Source: Streptomyces sp. NBC_01235
GTDB taxonomy: Bacteria > Actinomycetota > Actinomycetes > Streptomycetales > Streptomycetaceae
Length of the DNA stretch: 64,000 nt
Assembly: GCF_035989285.1 (NCBI RefSeq)
Contig: NZ_CP108513.1
Coordinates: 124,001 to 188,000, forward strand
Direction: 5' to 3'
The notes beneath the pieces are model-generated. The model saw only the letters and a program-made list of their open reading frames with translations. It did not search any database and had not been told where the DNA came from. How positions within the stretch are numbered: position 1 is the stretch's first letter; each line of letters opens with the position of its first letter. Made by a program: the position numbers and the translations under genes. This document shows positions 1 through 8,936 of this stretch, piece after piece.

Positions 1-210
1 CGCCGCGACAACACCACGGGGTTCGTGGTGTTGCCGAGACGGTGGGTGGTGGAGCGCACGCTGAGCTGCTTGCTGCGATCGAGGCGCCTGGCCCGCGACT
101 ACGAGACGCTGACCGCCAGCAGCGAGGCCCTCGTGCTGTGGTCGATGACCATGCTCATGGGACGCCGCCTGGGCCGCCACAACCCAGGCCTGCACCTGGC
201 GACAGCGTGA
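1..210 (+). CDS. IS5-family transposase, C-terminal part
   Basis: The reading frame is open from the first base and ends at TGA 208-210. It contains the [19 protein letters not shown] block that carries the catalytic glutamate (VER) of the IS5-type DDE domain, and the WSMTMLM tail motif. The same motifs occur at the C-terminus of the complete transposase at 4157-5074. It acts as the transposase of the surrounding element. Only about 69 residues are visible because the window starts inside the gene. The last 56 bases overlap the convergent passenger gene. Confidence 0.85.
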
Positions 211-679
211 ATACCCCCGCACGCTCCTGGGCCAGCCAGCCCCGTTCCACCAGCCGCCTCACTTTGGAACGCACGCCCTCGATCTTCGCCGGGATCAGGG
301 GCAGACCCAGCCGCCCGGCCAGCTCCTTCACCCGAAGACCCTCGCTCGGCCCGCTCTCCAGCACGCCCAGCAGCCGCCGGTAGTCCGGCGCGAGGGCGTC
401 CGCGCCCAGTCCCTCACGCCAGTGCGGCACTACCGAACCGGTCACCGCCACCTTGGCCGCGGGCGGCACCGGCCGGGGCAACACCGCCTCCGGCACTGCT
501 TGCGGCCCGGCCTCTGCCAGGGCTTCGGCCAGTTCCGCCACCGCGATGACGCGCCGCTCCAACACGGTCTCGGCCTGCGCCAGTTCGGCCATCACCCGCT
601 CCGCTTCCCCGCGCAGTTCCTCAACCCGCACCTGCGCAGCGGACTCCCGCGCCTCCAGCACACCCATGACCGAAGCCAT
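155..679 (-). CDS. IS-borne convergent passenger protein (coiled coil plus winged-helix-like)
   Basis: A 174-residue protein with no function I recognise. Residues 5-65 are rich in A, E, R and L in a heptad-like pattern and look like a coiled coil. A proline-rich linker follows (about 66-85). Residues 90-165 form a compact domain with [36 protein letters not shown] and a final hairpin, which resembles a winged helix. The ATG at 679 has GGAGG 7 bases upstream. A clear homologue with the same layout lies in the second copy of this element (5031-5549). In both, the stop codon falls inside the codons for the transposase SMTMLM motif. It may be a DNA-binding regulator of the element; that is inference. 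Confidence 0.7.
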
Positions 680-932
680 CAGCGACCTCCATGCCCTCCA
701 GGACGGACCCGACGGGGCAACCCTGCCTCGACACCACGGAGTTCATGCCTGACCAGCAGAAACCCACCGATCACGCCCGGAAAGACAACGGCTTCTCAGT
801 CAACCGACGTGCTACGCAACCAGGTTGGAAAAACCTCATTGCCTTCCTACTGGTACGACTGGGGCCGTAGTCAAGCCTCACCGTTGCAGCTTAGAAATGA
901 TCCGAACGCGACCCTAGATCAAACGCGCAGGC

Positions 933-2591
933 TTATCCAGTGCTGCCGGCAGCGATGACGTTCACGTAGCCCATCATTCCGTTGTCCTCGTGTCCGGTGA
1001 TGTGGCAGTGAAACATCCATTGCCCGGTGAAGTCCGTAAAGCGGATCCGGATCACTACTTTTCCAGCTGCTCCATTGACTGCGTGGGGAACGCTCACGGT
1101 GTCCATGTAGTCGGCGAGAGGTTGGGCGACGCCGTTCACACTGAGGATCTGGAACGGTGCGATATGGAGATGGAACGGATGATCGTGGTCACTCGTGTTA
1201 GTGAGCGTCCATTCTTCGACTGTTCCGAGTGTGGCCGGTTTCTTGAAAGTCGGCTTCTTCATGTCGAACAGCTTGCCGTTGATCCAGAAGTTGTTGCCGC
1301 CGTCGTCGCTCAGGGCCACGCTTCGGGATTGGGCGATGGGTTCTCCGGACAGATCGGGTTCGGATCCGGGAAGCGGTCCGGCTATCTGGGGCGAGGTGGC
1401 CATGCCCGACGGTCCCCCAGTGGCAGCCGGCCCCGCGCTCCCGCTGCCCTGTTGGACATTGACCTTCATGAGGGTGGTGTCGGGGTAGGAGTCGCCGTCG
1501 GCCTCCGTCCCGGACACGTGGGCGAGGGTTCTGAGCCAGGTTGATCCGGGGGCTCCGGCGGTCACCAGGACGTCGAAGCGTCTGCCGGGCGGAACCAGAA
1601 GGTGGGTCGCCCGGGTCGGCGCCGCGGAGGGAATCCCGTCCTGGCCGACGACGGTGAAACTGCCGCCGTCGAGCTGGAGATCGTAGTAGATGGCGTAACC
1701 TTCATTGGCGATTCGCCACAACTGGGTTTCACCGGCTTTCACGTTCAGCGTGGGCTGGTACTGACCGTTGACCAGGCGGACCGTCGGCTCTGCGGGCTCG
1801 AGGACCCCGTCCGGGTAGACGATCGAGCTGGATCCGCTGATCTGGGCGTCCTTGAGTGCCAAGGTATGAGCGGTGATCCCGCGGTAGGCCGGCGGCAACG
1901 ATTCGCGACTGTCCCCGACAATGATTGTTCCCGACAGCCCCGCCCCGATCTGGCTCTCGGTTCCACGGCAGCGGGTATTCGCTGGGTCCCCGGAGCACAT
2001 TTGATGGTCGTGGTACCAGTATGTCCCGGGTGCCTGGTTTGCGGGAATGTCGAGATGGTAGGTCAGAGTTTGACCAGGCTGACCGGACAGCATGATGTTG
2101 TCCGCGCTTCCCTTCGGGGACAGGTGCATTCCGTGGAAGTGCAAGTTGGTTGCCGTGCCAAGATCGTTTTTCAGATTCAAGGTGACACGCTGGCCAGGAA
2201 CCGCATGGAGGGTCGGCCCGACGAGACTCCCGTTGTAGGTCTCCGCGAGCACCTTCTTGCCCGAGATCATCACCTCCTTCTGGGCCGCCGTCAGCTGAAC
2301 CGTCAAATCCCTGGGGGTTGCGGTGTTGAGGTCGGGCGGTTCCACCAGCGCAGCGCCGGAAACCATGTCAGCCGCCTGCTGTTTGACAGTCTTAAGTGGC
2401 TTTCCATTAGCCGCCGAATTTGGCTGTGCGCTCGCCTGCTGTTCGACAGTCGGAAGTGGCTTTCCATTAGCCGCTGAATTTGGCTGTGCGCTCTCGCAGC
2501 CTGCTAGGAAGGAAGACAGGAGAGCGGCCCCGACAGCGAGGACTCCGAGGCGGGCAATGCGTGATCGACGCGCGGTCGAACGTGCGGACAA
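933..2591 (-). CDS. lipoprotein multicopper oxidase
   Basis: A 552-residue multicopper oxidase, likely exported and anchored as a lipoprotein: the N-terminus is basic, then hydrophobic, ending in the lipobox LAGC near residue 32. Three cupredoxin domains follow. Copper ligands are all visible: HFHGMH and YWYHDH near residues 150-195, HPFHLH near 470, and the type 1 site HCHITGHEDNGMM near 530, including the axial methionine. Family members oxidise metals or phenols. The start is a TTG with an AGAGG about 9 bases upstream; no better ATG or GTG precedes the signal peptide. After the lipobox come two tandem copies of a 20-residue linker (SAQPNSAANGKPL...). It lies beside a DUF418 gene on the same strand, 66 bases apart. 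Confidence 0.9.
   Translation of the reverse strand: MSARSTARRSRIARLGVLAVGAALLSSFLAGCESAQPNSAANGKPLPTVEQQASAQPNSAANGKPLKTVKQQAADMVSGAALVEPPDLNTATPRDLTVQLTAAQKEVMISGKKVLAETYNGSLVGPTLHAVPGQRVTLNLKNDLGTATNLHFHGMHLSPKGSADNIMLSGQPGQTLTYHLDIPANQAPGTYWYHDHQMCSGDPANTRCRGTESQIGAGLSGTIIVGDSRESLPPAYRGITAHTLALKDAQISGSSSIVYPDGVLEPAEPTVRLVNGQYQPTLNVKAGETQLWRIANEGYAIYYDLQLDGGSFTVVGQDGIPSAAPTRATHLLVPPGRRFDVLVTAGAPGSTWLRTLAHVSGTEADGDSYPDTTLMKVNVQQGSGSAGPAATGGPSGMATSPQIAGPLPGSEPDLSGEPIAQSRSVALSDDGGNNFWINGKLFDMKKPTFKKPATLGTVEEWTLTNTSDHDHPFHLHIAPFQILSVNGVAQPLADYMDTVSVPHAVNGAAGKVVIRIRFTDFTGQWMFHCHITGHEDNGMMGYVNVIAAGSTG
2375..2494 (-). repeat. 60-bp tandem duplication in multicopper oxidase linker
   Basis: Two head-to-tail 60-base units (2375-2434 and 2435-2494) differ at only a handful of positions and encode the repeated 20-residue linker after the lipobox. 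The unit length keeps the frame, so copy number could change without damaging the protein. Confidence 0.9.
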
Positions 2592-2657
2592 AAGACTATT
2601 CCTCTCTGGAAGGTTATTCAGAACGCGGTGGCGATCTTCTCGGTGTGATTACCGACC

Positions 2658-3893
2658 TCATTGGATGTACTTGGCGGGCTTGGTGGCGGCGTTGAGGAGA
2701 TATTCCAGCGGGCCGCGGCGGAAGAAGCGGGACCAGAGCGCGGCGAACACGATCGCGCCCAGGATGTAGGTGAGTACGGGTATCCAGGATCCCGGGGTGT
2801 TGGTGCCGGGGGCCGGGGGCAGCAGGGACTGGGCGACGAAGTGGCCGACGTAGGCCGTCAGGGACATGGCGCCGACGGCGATGACCGGTTTCGCCAAGCG
2901 GCGCAGGAGCGGCAGGCCGTCGATGAGCACCGTCGTGCCCACGATCACGAGGATCGCGACTCCGACACTGCCGATGACGTCGAACGTGGTGCCGCTGTGC
3001 GGTCCGGCGGACAACAGTTCCGACATCGGCAGCTCCGGCATCCCGCCGGACCCGCCGCCCTTGGACGACGCCGCAGAGCCGCTGGACGACGACCCGCCCT
3101 CCGCCATGCTCTTCAACGCGTCCTTGCCCGCAAGGAGCAGGGACAGGCCGTAAGCGCCTACGACGAGGGCGGCGCCGAGCGCGGCCAAGCGCCGCCGGAC
3201 GGCAGGGACGGACAGGTCGAGGCGGGCCAGCGCCATGCCGGCGACCACCAACGAAATCCACGTGATCGTCGGGTAGAAGCCGTTGAACAGCAGATCGAGC
3301 ACTCCCACGCCGCTGATCCGCTCGAGCGGATCGTAGGCATTGATGCTCTCCTGTACCGACTCGCTCAACAGCGAGGCCAGGGCAAACGACAGCTGCGGTG
3401 TGACCCGGGCGAGCCCGGCCGCGGTGATCGCCAGCGTCCTCGCGCTCAGTCGCACCAGGGGCAGGGCGATGAGGAAGTAGACGCCGCAGAAGCCGAGGAT
3501 GAGCGCCAGCAGGGTCGCGGCGCGGATCGCGATCCGGGCTTTCGCCTGCCGACCGGCCGGGCCGGTCTTCGGCTCACGGCGGCCGGCGATCAGCATCAGC
3601 GAGAACCCGGCGAGGGTGGCGAACAGCACCGACGAGTACTCCTCGGCCAGGAAGCGCACCCAGTTGCCGACGCCGTGTGTGGCCGACAGTTTCGGGCCGA
3701 TGTGCACGATGTACATGCCGAAACACCGCCAGCGCGCGGGCCAGATCCACCCCGACCAGGCGTCCCACCGAGCGGCCGCCGGGGGCCTGCCCGGCGGACT
3801 CGAAGCGAGTGCTCCTGCGGAGCCGGTGCCTCCTGCGGCGGCTGTATCTGCGTCATACAGGAAATCTTTCGGCGCCGCTGGGCGGCGGGCCAC
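2658..3893 (-). CDS. DUF418-family membrane protein, probable frameshift near N-terminus
   Basis: A multi-pass membrane protein with the DUF418 pattern: GMYIVHIGP near the start, about eight hydrophobic segments, AMSLTAYVGHF near residue 350 and RRGPLEYLL at the C-terminus. A serine/glycine-rich loop lies near residues 270-295. The family is related to acyltransferase-type membrane proteins; its substrate is unknown. The usual N-terminal helix VGVDLARALAVF is present but in another frame, at 3721-3768 starting with GTG at 3768. It would join GMYIVH if one T were removed from the TTT at about 3720-3722. The true start is therefore uncertain (GTG 3768, or further upstream if a second indel compensates). 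It is either a pseudogene or a sequencing indel. Confidence 0.7.
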   Translation of the reverse strand: MARRPAAPKDFLYDADTAAAGGTGSAGALASSPPGRPPAAARWDAWSGWIWPARWRCFGMYIVHIGPKLSATHGVGNWVRFLAEEYSSVLFATLAGFSLMLIAGRREPKTGPAGRQAKARIAIRAATLLALILGFCGVYFLIALPLVRLSARTLAITAAGLARVTPQLSFALASLLSESVQESINAYDPLERISGVGVLDLLFNGFYPTITWISLVVAGMALARLDLSVPAVRRRLAALGAALVVGAYGLSLLLAGKDALKSMAEGGSSSSGSAASSKGGGSGGMPELPMSELLSAGPHSGTTFDVIGSVGVAILVIVGTTVLIDGLPLLRRLAKPVIAVGAMSLTAYVGHFVAQSLLPPAPGTNTPGSWIPVLTYILGAIVFAALWSRFFRRGPLEYLLNAATKPAKYIQ

Positions 3894-4156
3894 CCGCCGA
3901 GCTTCGGTGACACCCCCGCCGACCGGCCAGGCCCACCCCGCCGACCGGCTGGAATCGATGCCTCAGCGGCCGGAGCCGGGGCGCGCGGCGCCGTCTGACA
4001 CAGCGGCAGACCCTAAGACGTTGTTGTCGCTCCGATCTTGAGGGTTGCGCGTCGAACGGGTGTCTCAAACGGGTGATCGTTGCAGGCTGCGGGCATGGGA
4101 ACAAGGCCTCTTGGTAGCTCGGGGTTGCGAAGCCAACCGAGAACGAGGAGACCCTG

Positions 4157-5074
4157 TTGCCGCAGTTGTACGCGTTCGCGCCGGTGGAGTTCAACTCGGT
4201 TGCTCCGTCGTGTGATTGTGTCGCTCACCGGTTCGGGAATGCGGCCGATCACCCGGAGCGTGTTCGGCGGTATCCGTCGGACATGACGGATGCGGAGTGG
4301 GCGGTCGTGAGGCCGCTGCTGCCGGTTCCGGGCTGGCTGCGGGGCCGGGGCGGGCAGCCGGAGGCGTACTGCCACCGGGTGATGTTGGACGCGGTCCGCT
4401 ATCTGGTGGACAACGGAATCAAGTGGCGGGCGATGCCGGTCGATTTTCCGCCGTGGGACCGGGTCTATGCCTTCTTCCGGCGTTGGCGTGAGAACGGCCT
4501 GGTGAAGGAGTTCCATGACCGGCTGCGCGGACAGGTCCGCACACAGCTGGGGCGGGACACGGAGCCGACGGCCGGCGTCATCGACTCGCAGTCCGTCAAA
4601 GCCGATGCCGTTGTCGCCGGCGACAGCCGCGGCTTCGACGGCGGCAAGCTGATCAACGGCCGCAAGCGGCACGTCGTGGTGGACACACTCGGCCTGCTGC
4701 TCGCGGTCATGGTGACCGCCGCGGACACCGGGGACCGCCTTGCCGCGCACGTCCTGTTGCGTCAAGTCACCGATGCCCACCACCAGTTGTCCCTCGTCTG
4801 GGCCGACGGCGGTTATACCGGTAGGCTCATCGAGCACTGTCTGACCGTGCTCGGCCTGGTGGTGGGAATCGTCAAACGCAGTGACGACATGCGGGGCTTC
4901 GTGGTGCTGCCCAAGCGGTGGATCGTCGAGCGGCTCTTCGCCCACCTGATGCGAAGCCGCCGCCTGGTGCGCGACTTCGAACGCCGCACCAGCAGCGCGG
5001 AGTCGATGATCTACTGGTCGATGACGATGCTCATGACCCGCCGCCTTGTCCGGCCGCACCCGCGGCGAGCATGA
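4157..5074 (+). CDS. IS5-family transposase
   Basis: A 305-residue DDE transposase. The N-terminal half has the IS5-type domain (MTDAEWAVVRPLLP near residue 43, then WRAMPVDFPPWDRVY near 95). Catalytic residues are visible as D in GVIDSQSVK (near 141), D in VWADGGYTG (near 217) and E in WIVERLFAHL (near 256). The start chosen is TTG 4157 with GAGGAG six bases upstream. The gene looks intact, so the element may be active. Its last codons overlap the convergent passenger gene. Confidence 0.9.
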   Translation: MPQLYAFAPVEFNSVAPSCDCVAHRFGNAADHPERVRRYPSDMTDAEWAVVRPLLPVPGWLRGRGGQPEAYCHRVMLDAVRYLVDNGIKWRAMPVDFPPWDRVYAFFRRWRENGLVKEFHDRLRGQVRTQLGRDTEPTAGVIDSQSVKADAVVAGDSRGFDGGKLINGRKRHVVVDTLGLLLAVMVTAADTGDRLAAHVLLRQVTDAHHQLSLVWADGGYTGRLIEHCLTVLGLVVGIVKRSDDMRGFVVLPKRWIVERLFAHLMRSRRLVRDFERRTSSAESMIYWSMTMLMTRRLVRPHPRRA

Positions 5075-5549
5075 ACCGGCCCGACTGGGGCTCGGCGAGC
5101 CAGCCGCGCGCGACCAGCCGTTTCGCCTTCGAGCGCAGTCCTTCCACCTTCGCCGGCACCGCGTCCAGCGCAAAAGCGGCGGCCATCTCCTGGCAGGTCA
5201 GCGGCCCTTGACGGAGCCGATGCCGGTCCGCAAGCGCCTGCAGGATGCGCTGGTAGTCCACCGACAGCTCCGACCATGTCAGGCCCTGACGCCACACCGG
5301 CACCTGCGACTTTGGTCTCGCGGCCGTTTCCCTGGACGGTGCCGGAACGGGCGCAACAGGGTCCTGCCCGGCCTCGTCCGCCGGGGCCAGGACCTCACCG
5401 ACCCGCGCGCGGGCGACAGCCCACTCCCTCCAATCCCGCTCCGCCACGGCCAACTCGGCCTGAATACGGTCAGCTTCCTCCCGCAACTCATCCACTCGGC
5501 GGCGAGCAGCGAGTTCACGCTGTTCCAGCAGCCCCACGACCGACGGCAT
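5031..5549 (-). CDS. IS-borne convergent passenger protein, second copy
   Basis: A homologue of the passenger gene at 155-679, 172 residues from the ATG at 5549 (MPSVVGLLEQRELAARR), which aligns with [16 protein letters not shown] there. It has the same order: heptad-rich coiled coil (about 5-50), proline-rich linker, then the VPVWRQGL...VDYQRIL...KVEGLRSKAKRLVARGWL domain. A longer frame reaches 5597 but the homology supports the internal start, which has a G-rich GGGGGTCG upstream. It ends inside the transposase SMTMLM codons exactly as in the other copy. Function unknown; the preserved protein sequence in two diverged elements argues it is a real gene. Confidence 0.7.
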   Translation of the reverse strand: MPSVVGLLEQRELAARRRVDELREEADRIQAELAVAERDWREWAVARARVGEVLAPADEAGQDPVAPVPAPSRETAARPKSQVPVWRQGLTWSELSVDYQRILQALADRHRLRQGPLTCQEMAAAFALDAVPAKVEGLRSKAKRLVARGWLAEPQSGRFMLAAGAAGQGGGS

Positions 5550-5670
5550 CCACGACCCCCATAGAAGCGATGGCACGACAGCCCACCCCTTCCACAAGGT
5601 CGCGGCTCCTACCCCTGACCAGCGGAAACACAGCTAACAAGCCCGGAAAGACAACAACGTCTTAGAGGCC

Positions 5671-5765
5671 GCGCGGATAGGTGGCGCACAGGGCACCGAG
5701 ATGGCGGCGCAGATACGGGTCTGAGCAATCACGAAGTTGCGGCGCTCCGTGACCACTATCCGCGC
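5671..5765. repeat. 95-bp MITE-like relic of an IS end
   Basis: Perfect 10-base inverted repeats GCGCGGATAG (5671-5680) and CTATCCGCGC (5756-5765) bound 95 bases. The interior resembles the left end of the IS at 6592-7535: ATCACGAAGTTGCGGCGCTC here against ATCATGGAGTTGCGACGCTC there, plus a shared GATAGG start. It looks like an internally deleted derivative of that element type with no coding capacity. Confidence 0.55.
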
Positions 5766-5966
5766 GAGCACACTTACGTCTCGCGCAGCTCGTGCGGTCT
5801 GTGGTCCACTGACCACACTCCTTGATCAACATCTCTGGGGGCGTCACATGGGAGGGTTGCCCGATCCACAGTGAAGACGCCCATGAACTCTGTATCACCG
5901 TGGACCGATGAGTTTGGCGCAGTTGGTTCGTCTTGCCTGGTGACGATCGTCGACCGTACGAGCGAC

Positions 5967-6596
5967 ATGGAGTTGACCTTGACGAACGACGCCGACCTGC
6001 AACCTGCCGTAGCCGCCGAGTTCGCGGCCCTCGCCGACCTGCTCGGCTCCGCCTCTGATGCGCAGTGGGATACGCCATCCCTGTGTGAGGGCTGGCGGGT
6101 TCGCGAAGTGATCGCGCACCTGACCATGGCGGCCCGGTACTCCGAAAAGGAGTTCATGGCCGAGTTGCGCCACTGCGACTTTGACTTCAGCCGCTTGTCG
6201 AACCAGATCGCCGGCCGGGACGCCGAACTGCCGACTGGCCAGCTCGTTGCCAACCTGCGCGCCGACGTGATGCACCACTGGACGCCGCCGGGCGGTGGGT
6301 ATCACGGCGCGCTCAATCATGTGGTGATCCACGGCCTCGACGTGACCGTGCCGCTCGGGGTGCCGCGCCGCTCACCCGACGAGACCATCCGGGTCGTCCT
6401 CAACGACCTTACCGAGGGCGGCGGGCACACACACTTCGGCATCAACATTGAGGGACGCAGCTTCCAGGCCACCGACCTTGACTGGTCGTACGGATCGGGC
6501 CCAGCACTGCACGGCGCCGCCGAAGACCTGGCACTCAGGCTCTGCGGTCGGACCATCCCGGATGGACGGCTGGAGGGCACACCGCTTTACAGATAG
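5967..6596 (+). CDS. DinB/maleylpyruvate isomerase-like mycothiol-dependent enzyme, 3' end altered by IS
   Basis: A protein of about 209 residues from the ATG at 5967; an upstream in-frame ATG at 5871 would give 241. The core LADLLGSASDAQWDTPSLCEGWRVREVIAHL is the N-terminal signature of the mycothiol-dependent maleylpyruvate isomerase/DinB superfamily, with a conserved metal histidine in IAHL and further histidines in NHVVIHGLDV. Such proteins are four-helix bundles that use mycothiol; the substrate here is unknown. The terminal arginine codon and the TAG stop lie inside the left end of the IS beginning at about 6592, so the native C-terminus was probably replaced, though little is lost because the protein is near full length. 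Confidence 0.75.
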   Translation: MELTLTNDADLQPAVAAEFAALADLLGSASDAQWDTPSLCEGWRVREVIAHLTMAARYSEKEFMAELRHCDFDFSRLSNQIAGRDAELPTGQLVANLRADVMHHWTPPGGGYHGALNHVVIHGLDVTVPLGVPRRSPDETIRVVLNDLTEGGGHTHFGINIEGRSFQATDLDWSYGSGPALHGAAEDLALRLCGRTIPDGRLEGTPLYR

Positions 6597-7535
6597 GCGC
6601 GGTGGGGGCCTCGGCAACAGAACGGACACAGGTCCGGTGATCATGGAGTTGCGACGCTCTGTGATCACTGGGGAGACCTGTGCCCGCGCTGCCATCATGG
6701 CTGACCGAACCGCTCTGGGACCAATTCGCCGACCTGCTGCCCAAGCGGCCGTCTTACCATCCGGACCACCCGCTCGGCTGCCATCGCCCGCGGATCAGCG
6801 ACCGGATCATCTTCGACAAGCTCCTGCAACTGCTGCGCTTCGGCTGTTCTTACGAGGCGATTGCCGACACGACGTGCTCGGCCACCACGATCCGCAACCG
6901 TCGCGACGAGTGGATCCGACTCGGTGTCTTCGCCCGGCTCAAGCAGATCGCATTGGAACCCTACGACCGGAGCATCGACCTCGTCCTCGACCAGATCGCC
7001 GTCGACGGCTCCATCACCAAGGCTCCCGGAGGCGGCGAGGTCGCAGGACGCTCACCGGTCGACCGCGGCAAACAGGGACTGAAACGCTCGGGCATGACGG
7101 ATGGATACGGCATTCCGCTGGGCCGTGTCCTAGCCGGTGCCAACCGCCACGACTCCCCGCTGCTTGCCCCGACCCTGGACCGCCTGGACGACCTCGGACC
7201 GTTGCCCGACGACATCACCGTGCACCTGGACGCCGGCTACGACTCGGACAAGACCCGCGCTCTGCTCAACGAACCCGGCATCCACGGCCGCATCGCGCAC
7301 AAGGGCGAGAAGGCGCCGATCCAGGCCAGTCGGCGTTGGCACGTCGAACGAACCCACGCCTGGCAGAACGCCTTCTACCGACTCGCCCGCTGCTACGAGC
7401 GCCGCGCCACCGTCATCGACACATTCTTCGACCTCGCCGACACGATCATCACCGTTCGTAGCCTGATCCGACGGGCATGGACCACTCACCGCTGGGACGA
7501 ACGCCCGAACCGCCGCCCATGACCGCACGCCTATC
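6592..7535 (+). mobile_element. IS5-family element of about 0.95 kb
   Basis: The element carries one transposase gene (6680-7522). Its ends share the inverted octamer GATAGGCG (6592-6599) and CGCCTATC (7528-7535). Upstream of the transposase there is an inverted pair GTGATCA...TGTGATCAC around 6636-6668. On the left it ends the DinB-like gene; on the right it truncates an older transposase pseudogene. No target duplication was recognised. Confidence 0.75.
6680..7522 (+). CDS. IS5-family transposase
   Basis: A 280-residue transposase starting at GTG 6680, preceded by GGGGAG. The DDE residues are visible: D in IAVDGSITK (near 109), D in HLDAGYDSD (near 183) and E in WHVERTHAW (near 224). The N-terminal domain with a helix-turn-helix-like segment (YEAIADTTCSATTIRNRRDEW) is complete. 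Length and motifs match intact relatives, so it is probably functional. Confidence 0.9.
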   Translation: MPALPSWLTEPLWDQFADLLPKRPSYHPDHPLGCHRPRISDRIIFDKLLQLLRFGCSYEAIADTTCSATTIRNRRDEWIRLGVFARLKQIALEPYDRSIDLVLDQIAVDGSITKAPGGGEVAGRSPVDRGKQGLKRSGMTDGYGIPLGRVLAGANRHDSPLLAPTLDRLDDLGPLPDDITVHLDAGYDSDKTRALLNEPGIHGRIAHKGEKAPIQASRRWHVERTHAWQNAFYRLARCYERRATVIDTFFDLADTIITVRSLIRRAWTTHRWDERPNRRP

Positions 7536-7537
7536 CG

Positions 7538-8936
7538 CGCGACCTCCTATTCGACTGCCTGACCGCACGCGTGGACGAACTGTTCGACCTCACCGACGCG
7601 TTGCCTTGAGCGGACCGGCCGGTGAGGACGCCGGTGGACCTGACGCTGGTGGCCGAGCACCGGCGCGGGCACGGCGCCCTGTACGACGCGCTGAACAACG
7701 GGACCATCGACGTGCCCCGGCTGCGGCAGGTGCTGGCCGGCCTGCCCATGCCGCAGGCCGCCGACGGGCGCCTGGTCCTCGCCGTCGACGTCAGCAACTG
7801 GCTCCGCCCCGACGCCCCGACCAGCGCGGAGCGTCTGTTCTGCCACGTCTACGGCCGCAGCGGGCGGACGTCGGACCAGTTCATACCCGGCTGGCCGTAC
7901 TCCTTCGTCGCCGCCCTGGAATCGGGCCGGACGTCCTGGTGCCAGCTCCTGGACGCCGTCCGTCTCGGGCCGGCCGACGACGTCGCCGAGGTCACCGCCG
8001 CCCAGGTCCGCAGGGTGGTCACCGACCTGATCGAGATGGGCCGCTGGCACGCGGGTGACCGCGACATCCTGGTCGTCTTCGACGCCGGCTACGACGCTCC
8101 GCGCATGGCTCACCTCCTGCGCGGCCTCCCGGTCGAGGTCCTGGGGCGGATGCGCACGGACCGGGTCATGCGCCGCCCGGCGCCCTCCCGCAAGGAGTAC
8201 TACCTGGCCCACCCCCACGGCGGCCACCCGCCCAAGCACGGCGGGGAGTTCCGCTTCGCCAAGCCCGAGACCTGGGGCGAACCCGACGCGGGGACGGCAC
8301 AGGTCACCGACCGGTACGGCACCGCCCGCGCGATGGCCTGGGACCGCATCCACCCACGCCTGACCACCCGCTCCGCGTGGATCGACCACACCGGCGAACT
8401 CCCCGTCATCGAGGGCACGCTGATCCGTCTCCAGGTCGACCGCCTGCCCGGTGGCCAGGACCCGCTGCCCCTCTGGCTGTGGTCGTCGGCCACCGCCCTG
8501 AGCGGCGAGGACGTCGATGTCCGCTGGCAGTCGTTCCTGAGGCGCTTCGACCTGGAGCACACGTTCCGGCTCATGAAGCAGACCCTGGGCATGACCCGGC
8601 CGAAACTCCGCACCCCGAGGCCGGCGAACGCTGGACCTGGACCGTCATCGCAGCCCACACCCAGCTCCGCCTTCTCCGCCAGGCGGCCACCGACCTGAGA
8701 CGGCCGTGGGAGAAGCCGGCTCACCCCGGCCGGCTCACCCCGGCCGGGTCCGCCGCGGGTTCAGGAACCTCCGTCCCCACCTCGCCTGTCCGGCCCGTGC
8801 GCCCAAACCCTCAACTCCTGGCCCTGGAAGGCCGCTTGGTTCGAAGAACCGGCGACCCGCCACCCACTACGACGTGGGCAAGACCGTTGAACGACCAGAA
8901 AGCATCACCGAACGAAACCGGCTCGGACCATAGAGA
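7538..8936 (+). pseudogene. DDE transposase (NF041680/IS701-like), inactivated
   Basis: The frame begins inside the gene at the border of the preceding IS (RDLLFDCLTARVDELFDL). An in-frame TGA at 7607-7609 interrupts it, and a 358-residue stretch continues from 7622. Catalytic motifs are present: LAVDVSNW, VVFDAGYDAPR and DLEHTFRLMKQTLG. After about 8610 the sequence moves to another frame (WTWTVIAAHTQLRLL...), and after about 8745 to a third (VRRGFRNLRPHLACPARAP...), ending near 8936. It thus has a 5' truncation, one nonsense codon and two frameshifts. It is clearly dead as a transposase. Confidence 0.85.

Follow-up and report, generated by a model that had tools for sequence, protein, structure and literature searches.

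IS5 is a large insertion-sequence family whose members are usually treated as one-gene elements. In the IS5 of E. coli, the small antisense frames ins5B and ins5C lie within the transposase gene. IS5 elements that duplicate TNA on insertion are labelled 'IS1031-like', and those with DDE_Tnp_4/HTH_Tnp_4 transposases that duplicate ANT 'ISL2-like'. The elements considered here share with single-gene IS5 elements (transpos_IS5_3) the transposase family, the inverted repeats and the TNA duplication, whereas they differ from them in size and content, three passenger-less relatives with legible ends measuring about 1.1 kb and the present elements 1.4–1.7 kb with a second conserved gene, hereafter the passenger. 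Like ins5B and ins5C, the passenger frame of the window copies lies on the strand opposite the transposase, though it stands mostly outside the transposase gene.

PIF/Harbinger transposons are IS5-related elements of eukaryotes, with members in animals, fungi and plants. One phylogeny places them alongside IS5 (PMC12730594). They require both a TPase and a Myb-like ORF1 protein for mobilisation, and in one reconstructed element the ORF1 protein is reported to bind the TPase as well as the inverted repeats (PMC2836001). The likeness to the present elements comprises an IS5-related DDE transposase, a 3-bp target duplication and a second element-encoded protein (PMC2836001; PMC12730594), whose DNA-binding domain might have its counterpart in the predicted winged helix of the passenger. 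However, the accessory domain of PIF/Harbinger is of the Myb/SANT type, whereas a coiled coil and a winged helix are predicted here and no Pfam Myb match was listed for the passenger; furthermore, the bacterial transposases keep a DUF4096 or HTH region and have no nucleus to enter. The parallel is one of architecture only.

Two convergent gene pairs in one window

The window, a stretch of 64,000 nucleotides, comprises bases 124001–188000 of the 11.09-Mb single-contig genome of Streptomyces sp. NBC_01235. Its copy 2 encodes, at 4157–5074 on the plus strand, a transposase of 305 aa with DUF4096 and DDE_Tnp_1 matches, which scored 188.8 bits against the NCBIfam model transpos_IS5_3 (NF033580; cut-off 110) and thus belongs to the IS5 family. 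The passenger gene of copy 2 (P0001; 5031–5549, minus strand) encodes 172 aa counted from its ATG, the mechanical ORF start being 5597, and overlaps the transposase gene convergently over 44 bp (5031–5074). The window opens inside copy 1, whose IS5-type transposase is represented by its 3′ end (1–210, plus strand; the start lies left of the window) and overlaps by 56 bp a passenger gene with an ATG start (P0002; 155–679, minus strand; 174 aa). The earlier note had claimed for both copies a minus-strand gene that overlaps the transposase end by 56 or 44 bases and stops inside the same SMTMLM codons, and both points were borne out, the two stops being TGA (TCA on the plus strand). The copy 1 transposase is probably dead because it carries one in-frame TGA, upstream of 1–210; its passenger frame is nevertheless open.

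As read, copy 2 extends from 4017 to 5661, with terminal inverted repeats at 4017–4028 (flank TAA, 4014–4016) and 5650–5661 (flank TTA, 5662–5664), and the stretches 4013–4028 and 5650–5665 form a perfect 16-bp inverted repeat. Copy 1 begins left of the window and reaches 795; its right terminal inverted repeat is at 781–795 (flank TCA, 796–798), and the left partner lies at about 1643 of locus L155 (flank TTA). Since the 3-bp flanks do not match in either copy (TAA/TTA in copy 2, TTA/TCA in copy 1), both may be old or rearranged. A multicopper oxidase gene (933–2591, minus strand) lies between the copies, followed by a DUF418-matching frame (2658–3893, minus strand) before copy 2. About 1 kb from copy 2 is a third DUF4096-type transposase (6680–7522, plus strand), beside which the passenger search of the genome reported none, making it a natural control, and close by is a transposase-like gene (7622–8698, plus strand; Pfam DDE_5, E 3.1e-59). 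An Rfam search of 1–8000 yielded no RNA.

The two passenger proteins are 42% identical (E 7e-31). Across 63 distinct passengers, copy 2 together with 62 relatives, dN/dS was estimated in all six frames and was lowest in the annotated one, 0.376, versus 0.516–1.392 in the others; the absence of stops from the annotated frame is partly a selection effect, as frames were read up to the first stop. The values along the protein were 0.20 in the coiled coil (residues 1–57), where the heptad period is strongest, 0.31 in the winged-helix part (residues 86–158) and 0.90 in the linker. Purifying selection thus acts on both the coiled coil and the winged helix of the passenger, and the comparison of nonsynonymous with synonymous change across copies upholds the suggestion that the homologous yet diverged proteins were kept by selection. 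The overlap measured exactly 44 bp in 70 of 80 named relatives, the best 80 of 311, a set skewed towards close relatives in which one element is represented by several identical copies; at one of these loci, L208, the passenger frame is broken.

The AlphaFold model of the passenger comprises a long helix (residues 4–54; 5388–5540, minus strand, in copy 2), a disordered linker and a winged helix of three helices and two strands (residues 95–162; 5064–5267, minus strand), a prediction that agrees with the coiled coil, linker and winged-helix layout proposed from the letters alone. Structural matches to the winged-helix fold include MarR, LexA and IdeR types, many unrelated winged helices tying with none singled out. 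Z-DNA-binding (Z-alpha) folds also rank near the top of these matches, level with the MarR, IdeR and LexA types. Searches of Pfam, NCBIfam, PHROGs and PADLOC gave no family for the passenger that reached its cut-off, and the search for a solved relative by sequence gave a single match at E 0.35.

Three gene orders inside mobile elements

A search with copy 2 found passengers in 32 of 61 genomes of the genus, in three layouts. In addition to the convergent layout of the window, a tandem-downstream layout has the passenger directly 3′ of a roughly 40% identical DUF4096 transposase, which scored 154.3 bits against the IS5 NCBIfam model, above the cut-off; with copy 2 as the sole query, these passengers gave E-values of 1.2e-5 to 5.5e-4. 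At one such locus (L135), the stop codon of the transposase and the start codon of the passenger share the sequence GTGA, an arrangement that suggests translational coupling. In the tandem-upstream layout, the passenger lies 5′, on the same strand, of a DDE_Tnp_4 transposase, in some cases with an HTH_Tnp_4 match; these transposases fall below the NF033581 cut-off of 140 (75.4 and 91.2 bits) and pass Pfam DDE_Tnp_4 and DDE_Tnp_1. Homology between the first and third layouts was established for their winged-helix parts (79 columns, probability 99.3, E 1.3e-20). The E-values given to the three layouts by the passenger HMM are flattering, the model having been built from all of them. In the passenger tree, each layout occupies one side of a branch, with supports of 81/95, 94/84 and 100/99, the first two only moderate. 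A fourth layout, considered for L115, was dropped, the neighbour being a below-cut-off fragment resembling IS4-family transposases. Because same-direction relatives occur in two other IS5 lineages, the convergent arrangement is not the core of the system: convergence is not essential, and partnership with IS5 transposases is. The description of the passenger as an antisense-arranged regulator is therefore, in its antisense part, not supported as it stood.

Element limits were drawn from near-identical copies at different sites. Convergent elements measured 1,674 bp (CC228A), 1,668 bp (NBC_01549), 1,663 bp (HM190) and 1,702 bp (G025), with ten copies of an element of about 1.71 kb read in genome G373 and three in G365; the tandem-upstream element measured 1,679 bp and the tandem-downstream one 1,421 bp, with the passenger within its repeats. 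In each multi-copy element measured, the passenger was located inside the inverted repeats, and it moves with the transposase as part of the element. Printed flanks, read by eye, showed a matching TNA duplication in 24 of 29 convergent and three of four tandem-downstream copies (27/33 together), leaving out L218 (block short of the ends), the G047 pair (within a 3-kb repeat) and G472 (within a larger repeat). Two of two tandem-upstream copies, read in the same way, had ANT duplications, a likeness to ISL2-like elements that this layout also shows in its transposase type. An automatic scan of 71 named elements recovered a repeat in only 39 and a perfect TNA duplication in 16. Among the 39 elements of the 71 that could be aligned, a GGGGAGG stretch is conserved just before the passenger start codon, and conservation is also seen in places along the intervals that separate the repeats from the two start codons, without pointing to any particular operator.

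In each of eight amplified families, the reference passenger has no internal stop, and passenger DNA was identical in 34 copies (in G025, 4/5); these families were found via their passengers, a biased count in which passenger-losing families would go unseen. In G373 (L283–L291), all ten convergent copies have identical passenger DNA and eight have matching TNA duplications, and this element was probably active recently.

Transposase lineages and distribution

Lineage counts were made by coordinates in the 61 genomes of the one genus, on at least 105 selected transposase rows reaching the 3′ end with enough length, fragments being dropped, and on at least 56 ISL2-like rows with the N-terminus present. 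Among the matches listed, 28 of 29 transposases of at least 52% identity had a convergent passenger, the 29th keeping a passenger remnant (E 4.2e-9). At 36–51% identity, the passenger was downstream in 11/76 and none was found in 65/76 of the matches listed. Likewise, it was upstream in 15 of 16 listed ISL2-like transposases of at least 54% identity, the exception (L271) having no remnant, and in 0/40 below that value; the third layout thus differs from ISL2-like elements in an accessory gene upstream on the same strand that all 40 more distant relatives listed lack. These figures agree with the remark in the earlier note that most IS5 elements have no such gene, and the passenger is lineage-bound in all three gene orders. 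At G014:C276, the transposase is present and the passenger absent.

A transposase tree of 45 sequences, with 18 passenger-less ones from hand-chosen places, separated the convergent and the tandem-downstream group from the rest by a single branch each (supports of 100/99 and 100/100), and the three groups required two label changes versus a shuffled mean of 18.3. Because passenger-less rows sit between the two passenger-bearing clades, the tree would need either two gains of the passenger or a single gain followed by losses. The distances of passengers and transposases, compared in 15 pairs, correlated at r 0.918, a value that 0 of 5000 permutations equalled and that linkage alone would give; the passengers differ more than the transposases (mean distance 0.54 versus 0.33). 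The convergent transposases carry an N-terminal extension, CDCxxHxxG[NS] (4211–4252, plus strand, in copy 2), found in 21/26 convergent rows (all but L074, L082, L090, L092 and L251), 0/19 passenger-less and 0/8 tandem-downstream rows; it might serve in metal binding or docking. Repeats could be read in three passenger-less relatives, which measured about 1.1 kb, with the transposase stop 26–54 bp from the end and a TNA duplication in two; the other 14 of the 17 scanned had no convincing repeats.

As to whether the passenger occurs without this transposase type, an IS5 transposase lies next to 37 of the 39 full-length passengers, a set of 39 that includes one locus twice (L117/L128), an identical pair (L135/L147) and a duplicated pair (L079/L080). 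No recognised one accompanies the two exceptions, L103 and L115, or two loci from a second family of the order, L299 and L300. At L103, a full-length passenger relative (2536–3069, plus strand), perhaps free-standing, lies beside a gyrase-B-like fragment. Five loci of the second family were read: L298 and L301 are convergent, the passenger relatives of L299 (about 2548–3027, plus strand) and L300 (about 2574–3062, plus strand) had no transposase match nearby, either with three transposase queries or in four neighbouring frames, and at L302 the sequence ends just after the passenger relative.

Named passenger matches come from Streptomyces and from further genera of its family. A phylum search, which scored 11 candidates per genome and may miss weak relatives, found the passenger in 4/296 genomes, all of the same genus, and an order search, second family included, in 96/147. 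Among plasmid records, 99 had a match (94 Streptomyces, three Kitasatospora, one Streptomycetaceae and one Nonomuraea), the Nonomuraea record being the one match outside the Streptomyces family. Passenger relatives were absent from phage records searched with copy 1 and from viral contigs. In one public plasmid record the transposase is annotated as 'Tn5741 family', with the passenger left as a 'hypothetical protein'; the open-access literature searched does not mention Tn5741, and among the papers listed from it no title or abstract start describes this bacterial element. With a search of mainly open-access papers, the novelty of a two-gene IS5 element is provisional.

Proposed role of the passenger protein

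Considering these results, we propose, with a probability of roughly 45%, that the passenger is an element-encoded partner of the transposase and that these IS5 elements work as two-protein systems. The long N-terminal coiled coil would pair passenger proteins, the C-terminal winged helix on its flexible linker would most likely bind the transposase and/or DNA, be it at the element ends, in subterminal sequence or at the target, and the passenger would help to assemble or direct the transposition complex; dimerisation, DNA binding, transposase contact and a positive role are what we infer. The uninterrupted passengers of the eight amplified families, found via those passengers, suit a helper no less than a brake. 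Several observations count against a partner of the transposase. Passenger-less relatives also multiply, G013 having five locations with equal or nearly equal scores, all of them lacking a passenger by coordinates. The transposases keep their DUF4096 or HTH_Tnp_4 region and may still bind DNA themselves. Between layouts the inverted repeats differ, yet the third helix of the winged helix stays well conserved, which speaks against simple end recognition. L103, L115, L299 and L300 without a recognised IS5 transposase, and G014:C276 without a passenger, point in the same direction. The structure model of the transposase (pLDDT 35.8) was unusable.

The main rival, a serious one though in our estimate less likely, is the reading raised in the earlier note, a negative regulator that holds down copy number, the winged helix repressing the transposase promoter or poisoning the transposase and the convergent 44-bp overlap adding transcriptional interference. 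The repressors MarR and LexA are among the structural matches, the conserved GGGGAGG stretch would suit separate expression, and a same-strand gene beside the transposase would also suit autoregulation. However, the passenger is uninterrupted in amplified families (again, found through it), including ten copies in one genome, the convergent overlap is missing from two of three layouts, and a promoter and terminator scan, which covered sigma-70-like promoters, found none in the element. By sequence, the passenger matched no known repressor family (MarR, LexA and others) above cut-off in Pfam and NCBIfam.

It is improbable that the passenger faces the host rather than the transposase, countering silencing by host nucleoid proteins or steering insertion to permissive DNA, as its confinement to one order, except for the one Nonomuraea plasmid record, and the conservation of the third helix despite differing element ends might suggest; its association with particular transposase lineages and the L135 gene overlap speak for the transposase as its partner, and no observation points directly to a host target. 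A host-derived gene carried along as ordinary cargo, with no role in transposition, would be consistent with a passenger that matches no known family and with the four loci without a recognised IS5 transposase alongside. This is highly improbable, however, since purifying selection acts on both domains, members of one protein family accompany two kinds of IS5 transposase in three different layouts, and the passenger is bound to transposase clades, save the named exceptions, whereas cargo would be expected to vary between elements irrespective of transposase lineage. High GC yields many false frames in this region, but a spurious frame opposite the transposase can practically be dismissed, because about 470 bases of the passenger lie outside the transposase, the annotated frame has the lowest dN/dS, and homologous proteins occur in layouts without the convergent overlap.

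If the passenger is indeed a transposase partner, a wider scenario may tentatively be drawn for IS5, in which a coiled-coil winged-helix protein joined transposases in at least two, perhaps three, lineages (convergent, overlapping downstream and upstream), as a bacterial counterpart of the Myb-like partner in PIF/Harbinger, and in which the CDCxxH extension of the convergent transposases might act in docking or metal binding. With a second protein linked to IS5 transposases in three gene orders, a division of labour like that of PIF/Harbinger would seem to have arisen in bacteria as well. The passenger groups hypothetical proteins from 32 of 61 sampled genomes of the genus and 99 plasmid records, and it offers a small genetic system, with natural controls with and without the second gene in one genus, for the question of why a DDE transposase takes a DNA-binding partner.
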